Shown piece by piece: positions 1,208 through 25,039 of a stretch of DNA of 64,000 nt. Under the pieces are notes generated by a model that was given only the letters and a program-made list of their open reading frames with translations, searched no databases and was not told where the DNA came from. Within the stretch, counting starts at the first letter, position 1, and each line of letters begins with the position of its first letter. This DNA is from Candidatus Methanosuratincola sp. (GTDB taxonomy: Archaea > Thermoproteota > Methanomethylicia > Methanomethylicales > Methanomethylicaceae), in assembly GCA_037478935.1 (NCBI GenBank), contig JBBFLR010000005.1, positions 1 through 64,000 on the forward strand, in the 5' to 3' direction. The position numbers and the translations under genes were made by a program.

Positions 1208-2608
1208 ATGATCAGCACGGTTGATGGTGCGATCATAGTTGCCTACATGGCCGCCGTCTTCTCGATAGGGTTCCTCTACAGGAAATCCAGCTCGACATAT
1301 GAATACATGGTTGCAGGAGGGCGCATCGGCTTATTCTCATTGTATGCGACCTGGGCAGCGACCGCGGTAGGTGCGGGCTTCGCGATGGGGATCATCGGCA
1401 ACGTCTACCGGTTCGGCGTCTCCGGCGCATGGACGCTGCTTGCCTTCGGTTTCGGCTTCGCGGTGGTCTATCTGCTGATGCCGCGCGTCAGGCACCTCGG
1501 CGAGAAGTACCTGTTCACAACCCTTCCTGAGATGCTCGGGAAGAGGATGGGGAAGGGCGTCCGGATGCTTGCCGGAGCGGTGACCGTTGCGGGGATCTCC
1601 GGGTTCATCGCCGACAACTTCGTGGGGCTGGGGACGATCTTCAAAGCCTACTTCGGCATCGAGCTCTGGGTTGGGATAGTTCTGGCTGCAGCCATAACCG
1701 CCTTCTACACTATCCTCGGCGGGCAGAAAGCTGTTATCAAGACGGATCTCCTTCAGTGGGTGCTCGCCTCATTCGGGATAGCCTTCATCGTGCTCCCGCT
1801 GGTCATGGTCAGTGCTGGGGGGTGGGGGAACATATCCGCAAGCCTGCCCCCGGATCGACTGAGCCTCTCCTCTTTGTCCGCATATTCTATAGCCGGCGGG
1901 CTGACCTCCATGGTCTTCGGGGTGCAGTTTCAGAACCACCTGGTGCAGAGGCAGTGGGCCGCAAGGGATAGAAGGGTCCTCCTGAGATCGACCCTGCTGG
2001 CAAACGTTACGTTCTTCCTCTGGGCTGGCGTCTGCGTCCTGATAGGACTCGCGGGCGCTGTGGCCTTCCCAGACCTTCCATCGCCGCAATCGCTCCTGCC
2101 CTTCCTGATAACCGAGGTTGTGCCGGTTGGACTCAGCGGCTTCGTGATCGCCGCGCTCCTCTCTATAATAATGTCCAGCGTCGACTCCTTCCTGATCGGC
2201 GTCTCCTCGAGCCTCTCAAAGGACATAATCGGCGTGGCATTCCCGGGGATGGACGACAGGCGGATCCTCAGGGTGACGAAGGCGAGCGCCCTGCTTCTGA
2301 CGCTCCTTGCGCTCGGAATAGCGATACTCTACCCTGACATCCTCGGGCTCATAGTGGCTTTCTTCTCGACGATCGCGAGCGGGCTAGGCGTCCCTGTCCT
2401 CGCTACGTTGTTCTGGAGGAGGGCCACGCCCCGCGGGGTAGCCGCAGGGATAATTGCGGGTTCGCTGGTCGCGCTCTACCTGCGACTTACCGGACCGCCA
2501 TTCGATCCGTCGCTTGCAGGCGTCCCTGCAAGCCTCATGGCCACAGTGCTGGTAAGCCTGATCACAAAGCCCCAGCCGAAGGAGCTGATCGACGAGTACT
2601 TCGGTTGA
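1208..2608 (+). CDS. Sodium:solute symporter family (SSS) permease
   Basis: A 466-residue, strongly hydrophobic protein with about 12-13 membrane segments. The N-terminal segment, the Gly-rich 'ATWAATAVGAGF' region, 'FYTILGGQKAVIKTDLLQ' and the 'SSVDSFLIGVSSSLSKDI' stretch are typical of the SSS family (PutP/PanF-like). It should use the sodium gradient to import a small organic solute; the substrate cannot be read from the sequence. It is preceded by its own TATA-like element and followed 44 bases later by a hydrolase gene on the same strand. Confidence 0.88.
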   Translation: MISTVDGAIIVAYMAAVFSIGFLYRKSSSTYEYMVAGGRIGLFSLYATWAATAVGAGFAMGIIGNVYRFGVSGAWTLLAFGFGFAVVYLLMPRVRHLGEKYLFTTLPEMLGKRMGKGVRMLAGAVTVAGISGFIADNFVGLGTIFKAYFGIELWVGIVLAAAITAFYTILGGQKAVIKTDLLQWVLASFGIAFIVLPLVMVSAGGWGNISASLPPDRLSLSSLSAYSIAGGLTSMVFGVQFQNHLVQRQWAARDRRVLLRSTLLANVTFFLWAGVCVLIGLAGAVAFPDLPSPQSLLPFLITEVVPVGLSGFVIAALLSIIMSSVDSFLIGVSSSLSKDIIGVAFPGMDDRRILRVTKASALLLTLLALGIAILYPDILGLIVAFFSTIASGLGVPVLATLFWRRATPRGVAAGIIAGSLVALYLRLTGPPFDPSLAGVPASLMATVLVSLITKPQPKELIDEYFG

Positions 2609-2652
2609 AAGAATCGGCATATGGGATGGATATCGAATGAGGTGAAAAAAGG

Positions 2653-3639
2653 ATGGGGTTCAGCCGTAGAAAGAAGCTTTTGGTTTCAGCACTGACAGTC
2701 GCGCTTATCCTCTTCTTGGTCGTGCCGTTCCTGATACCCATACCGCCCCTGAAAGGCACATTCCCGCCGGAGATGCTGGGAAAGCCGGACAGCCGTTTCT
2801 CTTTGGTGAACGGTTTAAAGGTACATTACAAGGTGTACGGTGAGGGGGAGCCCGTCTTCATGCTCATGCACGGCTTTGGGGCCTACTCTTTCTCATTCGA
2901 CCCTGTGATCGAGCACCTCTCCCGATACGGGACGGTGATCGCCTTCGACAGGCCCGCATTCGGCTTCACCGAGCGCCCGGTCCTGGACGCCTGGGAAGGC
3001 CCGAACCCCTACACGAATGAGTTTGCTGCAGACCTGGCGGTCGGCCTCATGGACGAGCTGGGGGTGGACAGGGCGATCCTCGTCGGGCACTCCGCCGGGG
3101 GCGCTGTGGCGGTACTGACGTACTACCGGCACCCCGAGAGGGTCAGCGCACTGGTACTCGAGGACGCAGCAGTCTACGGCGGCGGCGCCCCCTGGTACAT
3201 CGGTCTCTTTCTCTGGCTCCCCCAGGTCCAGAGGCTAGGCCCGCTTCTGGTCAGGGGGATCGCCGGGGACAGCGGGATAAGCACACTCTACCTTGCCTGG
3301 CACGACCCCTCGAAGATAACCCCCGACCTGATCGAGGGCTACCGTAGGCCACTCATGGCTGAGAACTGGGACTATGCGCTCTGGCAGTTCACCCTCGCCT
3401 CCGGGAGGTCGGGTCTCGAATCGAACCTGAGCAAGATCTCAGTCCCTGTCCTCGTCATGACCGGATCCGACGACAGGATAGTCCCCCCTTCAAACGCGAT
3501 CAGACTCGCGGAGGAGATCCCTGGCTCCCGACTCGTCGTAATCCCCGACTGCGGCCACATCCCGCACGAAGAGACCCCGCAGGAGTTCTTGGACGCCGTG
3601 GTGGCATTCCTGCGGACGAGCGTCCTCGCAGGCGGATGA
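2653..3639 (+). CDS. Alpha/beta hydrolase with N-terminal membrane anchor
   Basis: 328 residues. Residues 8-30 form a hydrophobic segment after basic residues (signal anchor). The rest is an alpha/beta-hydrolase fold: oxyanion region HGFG near residue 73, nucleophile elbow GHSAGG with Ser147, an acidic residue in GSDDRIV, and the catalytic His in CGHIPHE near the C-terminus. The start is supported by a GAGGTGA Shine-Dalgarno sequence 7 bases before the ATG. The next gene overlaps its stop (ATGA), so the two are translationally coupled. Substrate unknown; esterase, lipase or C-C hydrolase are all possible. Confidence 0.85.
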   Translation: MGFSRRKKLLVSALTVALILFLVVPFLIPIPPLKGTFPPEMLGKPDSRFSLVNGLKVHYKVYGEGEPVFMLMHGFGAYSFSFDPVIEHLSRYGTVIAFDRPAFGFTERPVLDAWEGPNPYTNEFAADLAVGLMDELGVDRAILVGHSAGGAVAVLTYYRHPERVSALVLEDAAVYGGGAPWYIGLFLWLPQVQRLGPLLVRGIAGDSGISTLYLAWHDPSKITPDLIEGYRRPLMAENWDYALWQFTLASGRSGLESNLSKISVPVLVMTGSDDRIVPPSNAIRLAEEIPGSRLVVIPDCGHIPHEETPQEFLDAVVAFLRTSVLAGG

Positions 3640-4982
3640 CCCCTTTCCCAAACTTTTTCTATCAGGCTTGCGTAAGTGATCACGCGCTCAGCGCGCTTCC
3701 ATTCAATGGGGATATCACATTGTTAGTGCTAAAGGACAAGGAGGACTACGGAAGACTCGGACCTGAGTTGAGGGACAAGGTGAACTCCTACATCTGCTTT
3801 GCGCGCTGGTATGTCCCCTACTACAGGAGGTCCCTACAGGACTTTTGCCTCGACTTCAGCAGGTACTACGAGATGCCGCTGACGAGTGAGGAGCGCCTCT
3901 CCTCCGACCCGTTCTCGTTCGTGGCGTTCCAGGACAGGGTAGTCCGTGCGACCACATCGGGCGGGACGGCAGGGAAGCGGAAGATCATCTTCAGGACCGA
4001 GGAGGACCTCGAGCGGAGCGTCGGCACGGTCACGAAGGTCTTCAGGGGCGCAGGCGTAAAGAGGGGGGACAGGATAGCCATACTCCAGCCATTCGACATG
4101 TGGAACACCGGACACCATGCGATGGCGGCGTTCCAGCGGATCGGCGCCCTGAGCTTCCCACTGGGCCTCTCTGGCACGGACGAGTTCGCCCTCTCGATCC
4201 TCGAGGAGCTCTGCTGCAATGTCGTCTTCGCGACCCCGTCCCGCATCTCGCTGCTCGCCTCCCTGAGCAAGAGAGAGCCTTGCATGCAGAGGGTGCTCTG
4301 CACCGGGGAGCCGATACTTGAGGCCCACAGGGAGTCTGTAAGGAAGGCGTGGGGAGCAGAGATCTTCGGGACCTATGGCACCGAGGAGGTTGACGGAATC
4401 GCATACGAGTGCGAGGCTCATGACGGCTACCACATCGTAGACGAGGATCTGATAGTCGAGATAGTCGATCCGGAGACGCTGATGCCCGCTGGGAAGGGAT
4501 CGGGCCTCCTCGTGCTCAGCAAGATAAACCGGACAGGGACCGTCCTGCTCAGGTACCCTGTGGGCGACATCGTGGAGGTTGACGAGAAGCCCTGCAGGTG
4601 CGGCTCCACCGCCCCAAGGCTGAAGTTCGTCAGGAGGACTACCGAGAGCCTGTACCTCTACAACGGGCTGAAGGTCTCCCTGCAGTCGATTGAGGCTTCC
4701 CTGCGGTCGGTGCTCGGGCAAGTGCCGCTCTACCAGGTAATACTGCAGCGCGATGGTGGGAAGGAGACTCTTACCCTGGTAGTGCAGGCCAAGCGTTCCG
4801 AGGACCTCGGCGATCGGATCCTAAAATCCGTACTCTCCTCGATACCCGATCTTGAGGAGGCATATCTCGTAGACAAGAGCGTGGCTATCAAGTTGGTGAT
4901 AGACGATTCATTCTCCCCTTTCTATGTCACCCAAAGAGGCAAACTCCCCAAGGTCGTCGACAGGAGGCAACCCCAGCAGTAG
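3636..4982 (+). CDS. Phenylacetate-CoA ligase-like acyl-adenylate-forming enzyme
   Basis: 448 residues of the ANL superfamily, PaaK-like branch. The nucleotide-binding loop TTSGGTAGKRK and the core motif FGTYGTEEVDG are visible, and the C-terminal small domain follows 'RYPVGDIVEVDEKPCRCGS'. It should adenylate a carboxylic acid and probably transfer it to CoA; the acid is unknown. The ATG at 3636 overlaps the hydrolase stop, but the first 28 residues look unlike PaaK N-termini. TTG 3720 or GTG 3726 behind a TATA-like AAACTTTTTCTA near 3650-3662 are credible alternative starts. Coupling to the anchored hydrolase suggests a shared acyl/ester substrate (inference). Confidence 0.8.
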   Translation: MTPFPNFFYQACVSDHALSALPFNGDITLLVLKDKEDYGRLGPELRDKVNSYICFARWYVPYYRRSLQDFCLDFSRYYEMPLTSEERLSSDPFSFVAFQDRVVRATTSGGTAGKRKIIFRTEEDLERSVGTVTKVFRGAGVKRGDRIAILQPFDMWNTGHHAMAAFQRIGALSFPLGLSGTDEFALSILEELCCNVVFATPSRISLLASLSKREPCMQRVLCTGEPILEAHRESVRKAWGAEIFGTYGTEEVDGIAYECEAHDGYHIVDEDLIVEIVDPETLMPAGKGSGLLVLSKINRTGTVLLRYPVGDIVEVDEKPCRCGSTAPRLKFVRRTTESLYLYNGLKVSLQSIEASLRSVLGQVPLYQVILQRDGGKETLTLVVQAKRSEDLGDRILKSVLSSIPDLEEAYLVDKSVAIKLVIDDSFSPFYVTQRGKLPKVVDRRQPQQ

Positions 4983-12594: not shown

Positions 12595-13982
12595 TTTCCA
12601 CCCCTGTCGCAAGTCACGGTGGAGACGCCCTCGAAGTGAGCAAAAAGCTTGGGCTGCCTCTGGATTCAATCCTGGATTTCAGCCTAAACGTCAACCCCTA
12701 TGGCCCGCCTCCCGCTGTGTACGACGCGATCATGACGTATGCCCCTCAGATACGCTTCTATCCGGAGAGATCCTACAGCAGACTGAAATCCTCGGTCGCA
12801 CGCTTCCTGGGGATTGGTGAGGAATGCGTGATCTTGGGGTCAGGAGGCACCGAGCTGATACACTCCATACTCGCAAGGTTCGTCCGGGGTGGTCCGGTGG
12901 TCATACCCCTCCCGTCCTTCAGCGAATACGAGGCTGCGGCTTCGGCACTCGGTTTGGATATGCGGCTCGTCAACCCTGTCGGCTTGAATGTTGACCTCGG
13001 GTCTACGCTGGGGCTTGTCAAAGAGGGAATCGCCAAGTGCGTGATCCTCTGCAACCCCAACAACCCGACAGGGGAGATGTTGGATCTCCGAGTTCTCAAG
13101 GAACTGATCGATACTGCCGAGGAGGAAGGCACAGTAGTTTTGGTCGATGAAGCGTACCTCGACCTCTGCCAGGACTCAGAGCGCCTGACCCTTGCGCCAG
13201 CAGTGAATGAGTTTCGTAACCTGTTTGTTCTGAGGTCGCTGACGAAGCCTTTTGGGTTCCCAGGTCTGAGGGTCGGCTACGCTCTCTGCAGCCCTGCGGC
13301 AGCGAGGAAGTTCGAGTCAACCGCAATCAGTTGGCGGATAGGGGTGCTCGAAGAGGCAGCCGCTGTTTCGGCTCTGGAGGATGGGGGCTTCCTGCCGGAG
13401 TCCAAGAAGAAGATACTCCTCGAAAAGCAGAAGCTGATCGATGGGATATGTTCGATAAAAGGCCTCCGTCCCGTCGAGTCGAAAACGAACTTCATGATGG
13501 TCGACGTCTCAGGGGCGGGCCTCTCACCAAGGAACCTTAGGTGGCGGTTACTTTCCTACGGCGTCTTGGTAAGGGAACTGGGCTCTGTGAAGGGACTGCC
13601 TGGGAAATTCATCAGGATCTGTGTCAGGCGTCCTGACGAGAACCGGATACTCTTGGAGGCGCTGAGGAACGTGATCGGTTCGCTCGACAAGATATACCCG
13701 CACAACGTGAGCTGCAATGGGAAGAAATGTCATGGGAAGGTGGACGACTGCAGGCTTTGTTTCTGCCCCTTTTACCCGTGCCTCGACAATACTACCGGCG
13801 GGTCTTTCGTAAAAAGGGAGAACGGAGGGGTTGTCTGGGGGTGCAAGGATTGCGTCTGGGTTCACCGCCCAGAGGTCGCTGACGCTCTGTTGGACGGGCT
13901 TTCGCGTATAGATGCAAGGTCAGATGATCCTGAAACAATCCTGAATGTGAGGAGGAGGGTACTGGAAGCATGCCTTCCATGA
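12591..13982 (+). CDS. cobD: L-threonine-O-3-phosphate decarboxylase-like PLP enzyme with Cys-rich C-terminal domain
   Basis: 463 residues. Residues 1-360 are a fold-type I aminotransferase related to histidinol-phosphate aminotransferase; the PLP lysine lies in LRSLTKPFGFPGLRVGY, and 'CNPNNPTGEML' and 'VDEAYLDL' are also present. The decarboxylase makes (R)-1-aminopropan-2-ol phosphate for the nucleotide loop. The last 100 residues carry several Cys (CNGKKCHGKVDDCRLCFCPF, then a C-x2-C near 'WGCKDCVW'), matching the small Cys-rich domain fused to archaeal CobD. Overlaps the preceding gene by ATGA. Confidence 0.88.
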   Translation: MISTPVASHGGDALEVSKKLGLPLDSILDFSLNVNPYGPPPAVYDAIMTYAPQIRFYPERSYSRLKSSVARFLGIGEECVILGSGGTELIHSILARFVRGGPVVIPLPSFSEYEAAASALGLDMRLVNPVGLNVDLGSTLGLVKEGIAKCVILCNPNNPTGEMLDLRVLKELIDTAEEEGTVVLVDEAYLDLCQDSERLTLAPAVNEFRNLFVLRSLTKPFGFPGLRVGYALCSPAAARKFESTAISWRIGVLEEAAAVSALEDGGFLPESKKKILLEKQKLIDGICSIKGLRPVESKTNFMMVDVSGAGLSPRNLRWRLLSYGVLVRELGSVKGLPGKFIRICVRRPDENRILLEALRNVIGSLDKIYPHNVSCNGKKCHGKVDDCRLCFCPFYPCLDNTTGGSFVKRENGGVVWGCKDCVWVHRPEVADALLDGLSRIDARSDDPETILNVRRRVLEACLP

Positions 13983-20821: not shown

Positions 20822-21574
20822 TCAAGAGCGTCCTTGAGCTTGGAAATCGAATGCACGCGACTGGGTAGCCAGGCTTTCTTTCAGGCCCGAATGAAGATCA
20901 GCCTCGCTTGCATTCAACTCTAACAAGTTCAATACCTCCATCGGGCTACACAGGAAGAAATCGGGTGTTTCATCCCTTGCCTCAAAGAAGTTACAGTCCC
21001 CATACCTTGCGTAGGCGGCCTTCATGCCTATCCGCTTCGCTGCCTTCACATCCCGCTGTATGCTGTCGCCTACAAAAAGCGCCTCTTCAGCTCTGACGCC
21101 CAGGAGGTTCAATGCCACTTCTAGGTGCCGGGGGTCTGGCTTCACAGATTCGGTGTCGTCCGCGGTCACCAGCACATCAAAGTACTCCCTGAGTCCTGCC
21201 CTTTCCAGCCTGATGACTGCATTCGCTCTCCTGGCATTCGTGACCAGGGCGGTTTTTACTCCCATTATCTTCAGTGTTGCGAGCATCGTCTCAACCCCAT
21301 CATAAGGTCGAATCAGCTCAAGCTTGGTAAGGTCGTAGATCTCGCAGCACTCGAAGTAGAGGTCGAAATCATATACGCCGATGCTTGCCATGTAATCCGC
21401 GATCACCGAGTGGCTCTCATACTGTCCGTGGCTCCTGATGAATAGGTTCAGGAGATCCACCCCGTTTCCATTCCCTAGCCTCGATGCTACCGCCCTGCAG
21501 GCACCGACCTGGGCGTAGACGAAATCCATAAGTGTGTTGTCCATGTCAAAGAGGACTGCCTTTACCGCGCTCAA
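20822..21574 (-). CDS. HAD-superfamily hydrolase, third gene of CARF-PIN operon
   Basis: 250 residues. HAD motif I FDMDNTL (Asp10, Asp12), motif II in VTNARR, motif III Lys in VKPDPRHLEVAL and motif IV GDSIQRDVKAAKR are all present; the cap is of the helical C1 type. General phosphatase of the haloacid dehalogenase family, substrate unknown. TTG start overlaps the upstream PIN gene's stop by 4 bases, so it is co-translated with it. In context it could act on a nucleotide or RNA end (inference). Confidence 0.85.
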   Translation of the reverse strand: MSAVKAVLFDMDNTLMDFVYAQVGACRAVASRLGNGNGVDLLNLFIRSHGQYESHSVIADYMASIGVYDFDLYFECCEIYDLTKLELIRPYDGVETMLATLKIMGVKTALVTNARRANAVIRLERAGLREYFDVLVTADDTESVKPDPRHLEVALNLLGVRAEEALFVGDSIQRDVKAAKRIGMKAAYARYGDCNFFEARDETPDFFLCSPMEVLNLLELNASEADLHSGLKESLATQSRAFDFQAQGRS

Positions 21575-22581
21575 CTTTTGAATCCCAGCCCTTTCAGCTC
21601 TCTGCAGACTTCCAGGTCTGTTTTAAACCCGTCGGCCGCCCTCATGTCCAGGAAGAGGGCCTTTACGTCATCTGCATCTTTCTTCCCCTTGAACTCTCCG
21701 TAAATAATCACCGAGTTCATCTTTACCAATGCCAATACACTTGCAAGGTCGGTTATAAGCCTGCACAGTCGTTCTCCCGTGCAAAATGACTCGCGGGGGA
21801 TCTCTTTGGGCATCTCGAAGAGGAAGCACTCGACGTCTTCGGCATCACAGATGTCGATCATCGATCCGTCGGCTGTGAGCAGTACAATCTGCATGTTCCT
21901 TTCGCGGGCGCATTTGGAGATCGTCCTGGCTATTATCCGGTCCCCCTCGCCCTCTTGACCGGAAAACCTCTCCGACGCCTCCAGGCATATTGCAGCAGAA
22001 AGCGCCTTAAGCTCCTTGTTAGCGAACCTCAAAGCCTTCCTAGACCTCTTTTTCCTCCTATTGATGAGCTCATCTAGCATAGCCCTCTCAAAGGGAGCTG
22101 CCATCTTCATCTGGAGTATCTCTTCATGAGTGTACTTGAAGTTGTGTACACTCGTTATCTCGTCCCTCACTGTGCTGACTATGACACACTCCTTAGGGTC
22201 CAACAGCCCGGTGTTGGAAACGAACCTCCTGTAGACCAGGTTTGTGTCAAGCGCGAAGAAGGTGTTTCTGTAAGACCTGTAGCCCTCCAACTTTTCCTTG
22301 AACTCCTCCATGTTGTCGAAGCCAAGGATCCCGCTGCTCATCATGCACTCCAGGACATCGGCGTATGATGGACCCTCGAGATACGGATCCTCCTCCTTGA
22401 TTCCGAACGATTCTGGTGTGAGGGGTGTGAACAGCCTGTATTCCCCGCCACTGGCGTTGCATTCGAAGAGCGGAAGGTGCGTTATGGGGTAGGTCAGCTC
22501 GAGCCCTCCAGAGAAGAGATTGGCGAGTATCTGCAACTCCTCCTCGTTCAGGTGGAATGAGGGCCTGCCTTTCGAGCTCAT
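21571..22581 (-). CDS. PIN-domain nuclease-like protein with novel N-terminal and C-terminal domains
   Basis: 336 residues. Residues 108-262 show the four acidic positions of PIN RNases: Asp112 in FALDTNLVYRRF, Glu141 in VRDEI, Asp214 in GEGDRIIARTI, and Asp238 (with Asp243) in LLTADGSMID. About 105 residues precede it and 75 follow; I do not recognise either flanking part. A basic helix (RRKKRSRKALRF, 175-186) could contact RNA. The ATG overlaps the upstream CARF-like gene (ATGA), and the downstream HAD gene overlaps in turn. Probably a ribonuclease controlled by the CARF-like partner; that role is inference. Confidence 0.75.
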   Translation of the reverse strand: MSSKGRPSFHLNEEELQILANLFSGGLELTYPITHLPLFECNASGGEYRLFTPLTPESFGIKEEDPYLEGPSYADVLECMMSSGILGFDNMEEFKEKLEGYRSYRNTFFALDTNLVYRRFVSNTGLLDPKECVIVSTVRDEITSVHNFKYTHEEILQMKMAAPFERAMLDELINRRKKRSRKALRFANKELKALSAAICLEASERFSGQEGEGDRIIARTISKCARERNMQIVLLTADGSMIDICDAEDVECFLFEMPKEIPRESFCTGERLCRLITDLASVLALVKMNSVIIYGEFKGKKDADDVKALFLDMRAADGFKTDLEVCRELKGLGFKS

Positions 22582-23063
22582 TGTCTTGGAGCACCCGCCT
22601 CTTCTATAAAGTCTCTAAGGGACTGCCTCCCCAGAGGGATCATCATGTAAGGCTTCGCCGAGTCCCTGGTGTCATCGATCTGCAGATAGAATATATGATC
22701 GACCCAGACCTTGTTCAGTGGCATCAGGGCCCCGACCACAAGGGCCTTCCTTCCAGGGGTTATGTCCACAGCAATCTTCTCTCCTGAACTCTTCCACGCC
22801 CTGATGAGTTCGGTCATCTTCCTGCCAGCCGCGATGAAGTCTCCGTCCTTTACAACCTCGCTCCTTATCACAGGCTGGAAGCCGTATTTGAGAGATACTG
22901 CCCTGATGCCCGCAGAAGCGGCTTCAAGTCCGCCAGCGGTTCCCTCCTCTGCGAATATGACGACCTCATCTGGATGATAGCCCCTTTCTCTTACAGCAGC
23001 ATAGTATGCATTCACCATCGCCCATCCGCTTCTGCCCAGCATCGTGATGTACTTGCTGCCCAA
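22578..23063 (-). CDS. Stand-alone CARF-like sensor protein
   Basis: 161 residues. The pattern is that of a CARF Rossmann-like domain: first strand and turn YITMLGRSG (residues 5-13), second strand VVIFAEE, then strand four followed by VDITPGRKALVVGAL (99-113). This last part corresponds to the ligand-loop motif (D/N-x-[ST]-x-G-x-K) of Csm6, Can and Card1-type CARF domains. The final strand is HIFYLQID. No effector domain is fused. The 4-base overlap with the PIN gene suggests the two subunits form a split CARF effector. Ligand (cyclic oligoadenylate or other nucleotide) unknown. Confidence 0.7.
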   Translation of the reverse strand: MGSKYITMLGRSGWAMVNAYYAAVRERGYHPDEVVIFAEEGTAGGLEAASAGIRAVSLKYGFQPVIRSEVVKDGDFIAAGRKMTELIRAWKSSGEKIAVDITPGRKALVVGALMPLNKVWVDHIFYLQIDDTRDSAKPYMMIPLGRQSLRDFIEEAGAPRQ

Positions 23064-23206: not shown

Positions 23207-23482
23207 TCACCCTCTCCCTCTGTTCTTTGTTCCCTTAGCGATTTGCCCTACTAAGACCTTCTTTCTGCCTGGGAGGATCCATGCTTTCTTCAGGTTGCCC
23301 CCGCAGATCGGGCAGCCGTGCCTCTTGCAAGTAGGGCAGACCCTGGCCTTTGCGCCGCAGTTTGCACACTCCGCCTCGACAACTGGAAGGCAATCGCGGC
23401 CTTCTATCATCTTCCCACACACTTCGCAGGAGGCGAATGTAATGAACAATTGAACCACCGCAAAAACCTTTTCTCCTTTCAA
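23207..23482 (-). CDS. Small zinc-ribbon protein
   Basis: Up to 91 residues with four CxxC knuckles (C19/C22, C39/C42, C49/C52, C57/C60) and a basic C-terminal tail. Likely a double zinc ribbon binding nucleic acid or protein. Listed from TTG 23482; an internal GTG after GGAGAAAAGG may be the true start, giving about 82 residues. It lies between the CARF-like regulator and the CARF-PIN operon, all on the minus strand. Confidence 0.6.
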   Translation of the reverse strand: MKGEKVFAVVQLFITFASCEVCGKMIEGRDCLPVVEAECANCGAKARVCPTCKRHGCPICGGNLKKAWILPGRKKVLVGQIAKGTKNRGRG

Positions 23483-23518: not shown

Positions 23519-24286
23519 TTAATTAATTGTTTGGACGTCGGAGCCATTGATCAGTAAGGTGTTCTTCCCCTTCTCGGTCAACCGCACCTTGCTGTTTCTT
23601 CCCCTCCCATCTACGACCAACAGCTCCTTTTCCACAAGTGGTCTTATGTACCTGCTCTCGAGTATTACGTGCCCGTATGGCTTGGACTTGCCCTCGACCG
23701 AAAAGAGGCCATTCTCAAGGCACATCCTCAGCAACATGCTCTTCTTCGGATCCCTTAACTGGCCCACAAGGGACAGGAAAGAAATCTCCTCCTGTGTGGG
23801 GAGGTCTATCGAGTAGTGGGGGACAATTTCGATCTTGGAGAGGCCTGCTGAGTTCTGCGCCCTGTTTGGGTCAACAATTTCGATGTATTTTTCTGGGTAC
23901 GCGTAGTAGGCGCTAACCCCTTTCTTGAATGTTAGTGTAGCGAAGTGGCAGGCAACGCCCTGGATGGATCCGCCCGATGATATGTTTACAAACACATGGT
24001 TTCCTGAATCCAGCTCTCCCTCTATTATCTTCCTGCAGGTGTAGATAAGCTTGAGGAGGTCTAGCTCTGCCTTGTGGATCCGGTAGGGCTTCTGGGCCCT
24101 CTCAAGGTCTTCCACTATCCTCTCTAGGCAGTTTGTCCCCCTCGCATTACTATCCTGCCTCACGATCAGGTGTATCCTCTCGCCCTTCATCCTTATGAAC
24201 GGTAGAACGACCCTGTCGATCTCGAATCCAACGGGCGCTATGTGGACCCTCTCTGGAAAACCTCCGGGGGAGATGTTTTGAGACAT
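23519..24286 (-). CDS. CARF-like sensor fused to winged helix, DUF6293/HFX_2341-like, Csa3-related transcription regulator
   Basis: 255 residues. The N-terminal 150 residues form a CARF-like Rossmann domain with the ligand motif VNISSGGSIQGVA (100-112). The C-terminal part (about 165-247) is a winged helix ending in 'LVEKELLVVDGRGRNSKVRLTEKGK'. The layout equals that of Csa3-type regulators and of the HFX_2341 family of archaeal regulators. ATG 24286 with a TATA-like element overlapping the divergent gene's promoter suggests a leaderless mRNA. Position suggests control of its own gene, the divergent HhH gene and perhaps the CARF-PIN operon. Confidence 0.75.
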   Translation of the reverse strand: MSQNISPGGFPERVHIAPVGFEIDRVVLPFIRMKGERIHLIVRQDSNARGTNCLERIVEDLERAQKPYRIHKAELDLLKLIYTCRKIIEGELDSGNHVFVNISSGGSIQGVACHFATLTFKKGVSAYYAYPEKYIEIVDPNRAQNSAGLSKIEIVPHYSIDLPTQEEISFLSLVGQLRDPKKSMLLRMCLENGLFSVEGKSKPYGHVILESRYIRPLVEKELLVVDGRGRNSKVRLTEKGKNTLLINGSDVQTIN

Positions 24287-24313: not shown

Positions 24314-25039
24314 ATGTTTATCGTATTAGTCTCAAGGGTGGATCCATTGGCGACCCTAAAGGCAATCGTCGATGAGTACATGGGCAGGGCGCAGGGAATA
24401 TCTGAGATGTGTACAAGGTGCCTCAAGACCGAACGGTGGGGCGGGAGCGTCCCCCTGATGGTTGTGGACGCTGCCTTCACGTCGATTGGGCTGAACTATT
24501 TCACAGCGGTCGTACCGAAAGTGGACCATTTCAGGAGAACGTTTGTGGACGCAGGGCGCATAAGAACGCTGAAGGATCTAGCAGGGTTCAAGCTCGACGA
24601 ACTGGTGGGCGTCTGGAGAAACCGCAGGTCCTGGGCAGCCGCGCAGGCGATCGCCTCGCACCTGTCTAGCATGCGGCTAGGGACCGACCGTGATGCGCTG
24701 AGGTCTTGGGCGGGGTCATCTTCCCTCGAAAAATGGTACCTAGACCCAATCGGGAGGATCAGCGGAGTCGGCCTCGTCACGTACCAGTACCTGAGGATGA
24801 TGGGTGGAATCGACACGGTGATGCCAGACAAGATCGTCAAGCGGGTCATAAACGGGATACTGGTCGGTGCAGGCGAGGAGCCAGTTGAGGACAATATGGC
24901 ATTCATAAAGAAGGTCGAGGAGATCGCGGAGCAGACGGGATACCGGCCGATCGACCTCTGCTGGATGACTTGGATGGTCCAGCCCGAGGGGAAGATCATG
25001 AGGATGGAGAAGTACTCGGGAATCCTTGCCATGATCTGA
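24314..25039 (+). CDS. Helix-hairpin-helix DNA glycosylase-like protein
   Basis: 241 residues. The segment ISGVGLVTYQYLRMMGG followed by VMPDKIVKRV matches the HhH hairpin and the catalytic-Asp region of the HhH-GPD superfamily. It lacks the C-terminal Fe-S Cys cluster of endonuclease III. Base-excision activity is likely but the lesion is unknown. It is transcribed divergently from the CARF-winged-helix gene out of a 27-base shared promoter. Confidence 0.65.
   Translation: MFIVLVSRVDPLATLKAIVDEYMGRAQGISEMCTRCLKTERWGGSVPLMVVDAAFTSIGLNYFTAVVPKVDHFRRTFVDAGRIRTLKDLAGFKLDELVGVWRNRRSWAAAQAIASHLSSMRLGTDRDALRSWAGSSSLEKWYLDPIGRISGVGLVTYQYLRMMGGIDTVMPDKIVKRVINGILVGAGEEPVEDNMAFIKKVEEIAEQTGYRPIDLCWMTWMVQPEGKIMRMEKYSGILAMI

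Follow-up and report, generated by a model that had tools for sequence, protein, structure and literature searches.

The window, by which we mean the whole 64,000-nucleotide stretch of DNA analysed, carries a minus-strand operon which probably (at a rough probability of 55%) encodes a two-subunit nucleotide-gated RNase of the CARF_m1-PIN type resembling SiRe_0806 of Sulfolobus islandicus, together with a HAD phosphatase that would act on nucleotides and a CARF-wHTH protein that would control transcription, the ligand coming from a source other than type III CRISPR. Together the CARF and PIN proteins correspond to the halves of an already catalogued family, one member of which has been solved with cA4 bound, and the sensor-nuclease pair is thus not a new kind. 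What extends the known picture is the two-chain form, the conserved operon, and its presence in a CRISPR-bearing genome without a detectable messenger synthase. The association of CARF families with PIN domains has been on record since 2014 (PMC4012209), and the cyclic oligoadenylate effectors listed in PMC12669027 include PIN; a search of the available literature for SiRe_0806 or 'CARF-PIN' found nothing. The source genome, that of a methanogenic archaeon (G000; 1.52 Mb, 96.5% complete, with the window on contig C5) has Candidatus Methanosuratincola/Methanomethylicota as its closest named relatives. The features of the operon are as follows.

23519-24286, minus strand: CARF-wHTH regulator, HFX_2341/Csa3-like, CARF3 clade (255 residues)
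23207-23482, minus strand: small Zn-ribbon protein of 91 aa, conserved within the genus, its gene lying between those of the regulator and CARF
22578-23063, minus strand: CARF sensor of the CARF_m1 clade as a stand-alone protein (161 aa, TTG start)
22578-22581, minus strand: overlap of the CARF stop and PIN start, 4-base ATGA
21571-22581, minus strand: PIN nuclease protein (336 aa, ATG start), its PIN core flanked by an N-terminal linker domain and a C-terminal domain
21571-21574, minus strand: overlap of the PIN stop and HAD start, 4-base TTGA
20822-21574, minus strand: HAD-IA family phosphatase (250 aa, TTG start)

The original prediction described three minus-strand genes with 4-base overlaps, with which the open reading frame coordinates and both junctions agree, and similar NTGA overlaps join CARF and PIN in most relatives. 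The operon itself is real, although the prediction missed the two upstream genes (the Zn ribbon and the second CARF protein), the existing catalogue entry of the family, and the presence of a CRISPR system in the genome. dN/dS is approximately 0.1–0.2 across the genus for each of the regulator, CARF, PIN and HAD genes; the last three are therefore real genes under strong purifying selection. The Zn-ribbon protein displays 54–67% identity in four relatives and a dN/dS of 0.30 (one pair), with no family match over the cut-off in profile searches. The neighbouring genes that were scanned have ordinary or housekeeping functions (cobalamin synthesis, hydrogenase and others), placing the operon outside any CRISPR-cas locus. 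No tRNA gene was found in the window, and alignment of the gap between the Zn-ribbon and CARF genes revealed no conserved TATA-like box. Beyond the regulator, positions 24314-25039 of the plus strand encode, divergently from the regulator, a 241-residue protein that the genus conserves and that has no Pfam or NCBIfam match.

The CARF protein matches the PADLOC profiles CARF_m1--CARF at 9.7e-54 and CARF_m1--CARF_PIN at 1.1e-21, while its Pfam and NCBIfam matches are sub-threshold only (Csa3_N 0.0031, Csx14 0.046). Its AlphaFold model, built from the 24-row alignment A3 (pLDDT 88.6, pTM 0.85), has as its best Foldseek match in the PDB the CARF domain of Cam1 with cA6 (9.6e-8), followed by Csm6, ring nucleases, SiRe_0806 and Csa3, with Card1 also matched. 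AlphaFold, Foldseek and PADLOC thus agree on a CARF-type Rossmann fold for 22578-23063; a fold search placing it elsewhere had been named as the result that would overturn the CARF assignment, and since the best matches are all CARF domains the assignment survives. The predicted ligand motif VDITPGRKALVVG is present, and the loop residues D100, T102, G104, R105 and K106 are invariant among the 24 aligned sequences. G104, R105 and K106 form the conserved motif II (Gly-Arg-Lys), which matches that of the ring nuclease Sso2081, in which Arg105 and Lys106 respectively make the largest contribution to substrate binding and stabilise a transient intermediate (PMC10018336). By homology to cA4-bound SiRe_0806 the protein would bind a cyclic oligoadenylate. 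In the motif-I loop the split proteins have GRSxW, or GRTxW in the case of G008, compared to GS[DN]K in the fused proteins of Sulfolobales, and because of this the ligand of the split CARF may differ from cA4. A further genome, G207, gave a weak CARF match (E 6.8e-4).

The PIN protein has a core at approximately residues 107–255 with predicted catalytic residues D112, E141, D214 and D238. These four acidic residues, recognised in the original prediction, are invariant in the 24 aligned sequences. Sequence profiles give a weak match to PIN_4 (3.8e-4) and a match of residues 73–304 to the PADLOC CARF_m1--CARF_PIN profile (8e-14), so that both window proteins match the CARF_m1 clade (PDLC01971, PDLC01973), which already holds stand-alone CARF as well as CARF_PIN architectures. 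In the AlphaFold model (pLDDT 85.6, pTM 0.87) the PIN fold is evident, the top five Foldseek matches in the PDB being all SiRe_0806 chains, apo (9JXW) and cA4-bound (9JXX), with 3i8o, Rrp44 and FitB among the others. The profile of alignment A4 matches the SiRe_0806 chain over the linker, PIN and C-terminal regions, and the flanks of the PIN domain, previously described as unfamiliar, are therefore the normal flanks of the CARF-PIN family. RNase activity is the activity to be expected of this protein by homology.

SiRe_0806 and the fused Sulfolobales proteins share with the window pair the order CARF, linker, PIN, C-terminal domain, and the PIN acidic residues and GRK loop are invariant in them also. 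They differ in being a single chain, where the window has two overlapping genes in different frames, in motif I, and in their limited identity to the window proteins (16–28%); no HAD or CARF-wHTH neighbour was recognised beside the fused Sulfolobales genes examined, whereas the window operon has both. Alignments A3 and A4 include Sulfolobales relatives of SiRe_0806, and the independent test is that of split proteins against Sulfolobales-only profiles. In this profile-profile comparison (hhalign) both the split CARF (98.2%, E 4e-14) and the split PIN (96.5%, E 9e-10) are homologous to fused CARF-PIN. Fused proteins of approximately 385–470 residues occur in many genomes of family f27, labelled Sulfolobales-type because one f27 fused protein matches SiRe_0806 at 1.9e-77, and one of at least 515 residues occurs in G026, a genome of the same class as that of the window. 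Split pairs are also found in G378 and G249, near Cas4 in both (in G378 the Cas4 was assigned by reading the sequence) and near Cas6 too in G249. PADLOC, Foldseek and profile-profile matches and the fused homologues thus all bear out the proposal of a split sensor and nuclease. In an unrooted tree of CARF plus PIN, the fused G026 protein groups with the split G378 and G249 pairs with support of 99–100, apart from the split clade of Methanosuratincola. Because of this grouping, the chain has probably been joined or broken more than once. A 496-residue CARF+PIN frame in G004 (locus L008, 1587-3077, plus strand) was rejected as a natural fusion: its ATGA junction is preserved, and what joins the two frames is a frameshift near the end of CARF in a metagenome-assembled genome (MAG) of approximately 3.4x coverage; the frameshift is either an assembly error or real.

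The module was found in seven genomes of two genera (G000, G001, G004, G005, G007, G008, G014), and each of them has the CARF, PIN and HAD genes side by side in one order, contrary to the refuting case, named in the original prediction, of homologues whose three genes are never neighbours. The five genomes belonging to the genus of the window carry the module at one common chromosomal site, while the two of the sister genus keep the gene order in other contexts, from which it appears that the module behaves as a unit. It is present in 7 of 22 genomes of the family and missing from relatives that are > 95% complete. Six of the seven operon-bearing genomes have the CARF-wHTH regulator at the head of the operon (the G014 contig ends too soon), and the regulator occurs also in G003, where the contig ends at the regulator, and in G009. 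Its N-terminal CARF and C-terminal wHTH are identified by the HFX_2341_N and DUF6293_C domains (PF19810 2.7e-24, PF22665 1.4e-11, both above cut-off) and by PADLOC CARF3 (2.2e-42); it falls below the NCBIfam equivalog cut-off for HFX_2341 itself. The Csa3-like HFX_2341, a cas-gene repressor from Haloferax mediterranei, has the same architecture and works without a type III cyclase (PMC11434293), a setting like that of G000 by marker searches, but HFX_2341 controls cas genes whereas 23519-24286 heads a CARF-PIN operon. In three genomes (G001, G008, G014) a beta-lactamase/RMMBL nuclease gene directly precedes CARF; in the lineage of the window the operon lacks this gene, and the candidates elsewhere in G000, G004 and G005 proved to be only diverged paralogues (34–37% identity). 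The nuclease beside CARF, a 515-residue metallo-beta-lactamase/RMMBL protein, was located at 2452-3996 (minus) of L011, 7943-9496 (plus) of L013 and 12699-13535 (minus) of L012. Carriage of the module by viruses or plasmids was not found, none of 196 pattern matches being confirmed.

Profile matches assign the third gene to the HAD phosphatases (HAD_2 1.9e-31; TIGR02253 4.3e-36, below the cut-off of that family), with motifs I–IV (DMDNT, VT(N/D)A, KP, GDS..D) conserved in six orthologues, as expected of HAD-IA. Cleavage by PIN enzymes normally yields 3'-OH and 5'-phosphate ends, which makes the earlier suggestion that the HAD protein repairs RNA ends less likely and leaves it without support. 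Close orthologues (> 50% identity) occur only in six operon-bearing genomes and always beside PIN, while in G014 the gene is a degraded remnant, so retention of HAD is not universal. The nearest functional precedent is Chp, a type III-A effector which likewise brings a CARF sensor and a HAD phosphatase into one system and dephosphorylates ATP, dATP and IMP (PMC12715507). Chp is however one membrane protein with HAD fused to CARF, acting downstream of Cas10, whereas the window HAD is a separate 250-residue protein without a CARF match, in a genome without a Cas10 match. Given this precedent, a nucleotide is our best guess for the substrate of the window HAD, which retains all its catalytic motifs.

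The original prediction placed this operon outside CRISPR, which is correct for the operon and for type III systems in G000 but not for the genome, which carries Cas1, apparent type I-A genes and a Csa3-like protein (the last two named by eye from the sequence), nor for the distant split pairs beside Cas4 and Cas6. Cas1 is widespread in the family. Profile searches for Cmr2-type Cas10 and RAMP gave no match in G000, G001, G004, G005, G008 or G014, so that Cas10 as a source of cyclic oligoadenylate was lacking in six of the operon-bearing genomes; the same searches detected both markers in G003, G007 and G016. G007 is the exception among the seven, with the operon and a type III locus (Cas10/RAMP) on different contigs. 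All of these genomes are MAGs, and four of those bearing the operon are 95–96.5% complete. Profiles of mCpol, DAC and SMODS detected nothing in G000, the mCpol control being weak and matching one control genome only. We do not claim an anti-correlation between the operon and type III systems, as Cas10 matches in one of seven operon genomes and six of 15 others are too few to differ.

We propose that the CARF subunit would dimerise and bind a cyclic (or short linear) oligoadenylate-type ligand in a pocket formed by its GRS and DITPGRK loops, and would dock on the PIN subunit via the N-terminal linker domain of the latter. Ligand binding would then trigger metal-dependent cleavage of RNA by D112, E141, D214 and D238, as suggested by homology to the one-chain, cA4-bound SiRe_0806, leading to growth arrest or defence. 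The HAD protein may act on nucleotides, most likely released mononucleotides or messenger fragments, as either a second effector or a reset enzyme, while the upstream CARF-wHTH protein may sense the same class of ligand and control transcription. We infer each of these functions, including formation of the complex and its biological role, from the comparisons above, and in G000 the ligand would come from elsewhere than type III CRISPR. It is tentatively possible that an undescribed synthase, distinct from Cas10, mCpol, DisA-DAC and CD-NTase, makes a cyclic-oligonucleotide (or related) alarm to which the CARF-wHTH protein and the CARF/PIN RNase with its dedicated HAD respond.

It is rather doubtful that the operon serves RNA decay rather than defence. 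The MBL/RMMBL nuclease gene in the operon of three genomes, the housekeeping genes that surround the operon in the window and the missing match to a known messenger synthase in G000 are all consistent with such a role, for which there is a precedent in RtcR, whose CARF-like domain belongs to a system under the control of damaged tRNA (PMC7790460); however the patchy presence of the module in the family, its different contexts in the sister genus, and the occurrence of related pairs in CRISPR loci or beside Argonaute fit defence better. We consider it unlikely that the CARF protein acts chiefly as a ring nuclease or an antitoxin-like negative regulator, degrading the signal or keeping the PIN RNase inactive. 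Stand-alone CARF proteins do include ring nucleases, the CARF alignment profile matches Sso2081 and Sis0455 (5e-8 to 6.5e-9), motif II is intact and motif I (GRS/GRT) is close to the GTS that Sso2081 requires for cleavage (PMC10018336), and a sensor and a toxin-like RNase in one operon are typical of toxin-antitoxin pairs. However the site-closing helical insert of Sso2081 with Tyr133 was not identified in the window CARF, and the fused relatives hold the same CARF within the nuclease chain, an arrangement consistent with activation in cis; one protein can in any case combine ring-nuclease activity with activation.

More improbable still, in our view, is that the pair works as proposed but serves an existing CRISPR pathway, with signals from a type III system that was overlooked in incomplete genomes or only transiently acquired, and the HAD a bystander. 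The co-occurrence of operon and Cas10/RAMP locus in G007, the spread of Cas1 through the family, the decay of HAD in G014 and the distant split pairs beside Cas4 and Cas6 point this way, but two independent type III markers are absent from the four operon genomes of 95–96.5% completeness while being found in relatives, and the HAD orthologues track the operon exactly, adjacent each time.

The two-subunit, nucleotide-gated RNase that we favour bears on CARF effectors in general, our knowledge of which comes almost entirely from type III CRISPR. The occurrence of a conserved, strongly selected CARF/PIN pair in genomes where no messenger synthase was detected points to CARF signalling beyond type III systems, and since in the two-chain form the sensor and nuclease can be purified apart and recombined with candidate ligands, it makes such ligands testable in small proteins.

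The loci of the distant relatives display further associations. In G026 (contig C63, locus L032, 2-3772, plus strand) three overlapping genes encode an N-terminal half of Argonaute (2-1045), a PIWI half (1042-2238; Pfam Piwi 3.9e-11, PADLOC pAgo 2.3e-62) and the fused CARF-PIN protein (2226-3772, running off the contig), an arrangement which suggests an operon of split Argonaute whose effector is the CARF-PIN protein; we know of no description of such an operon. Locus L075 (G378, contig C82, 212-5092, plus strand) contains two successive CARF/PIN pairs, one at 212-667/664-1710 and the other at 1757-2284/2260-3390; after them come a CRISPR ring-nuclease homologue (3430-4269) and the apparent Cas4 gene. 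Locus L076 (G249, contig C46, 4206-7356, minus strand) is CRISPR-linked, with Cas6, a stand-alone CARF, PIN and Cas4 in a row.
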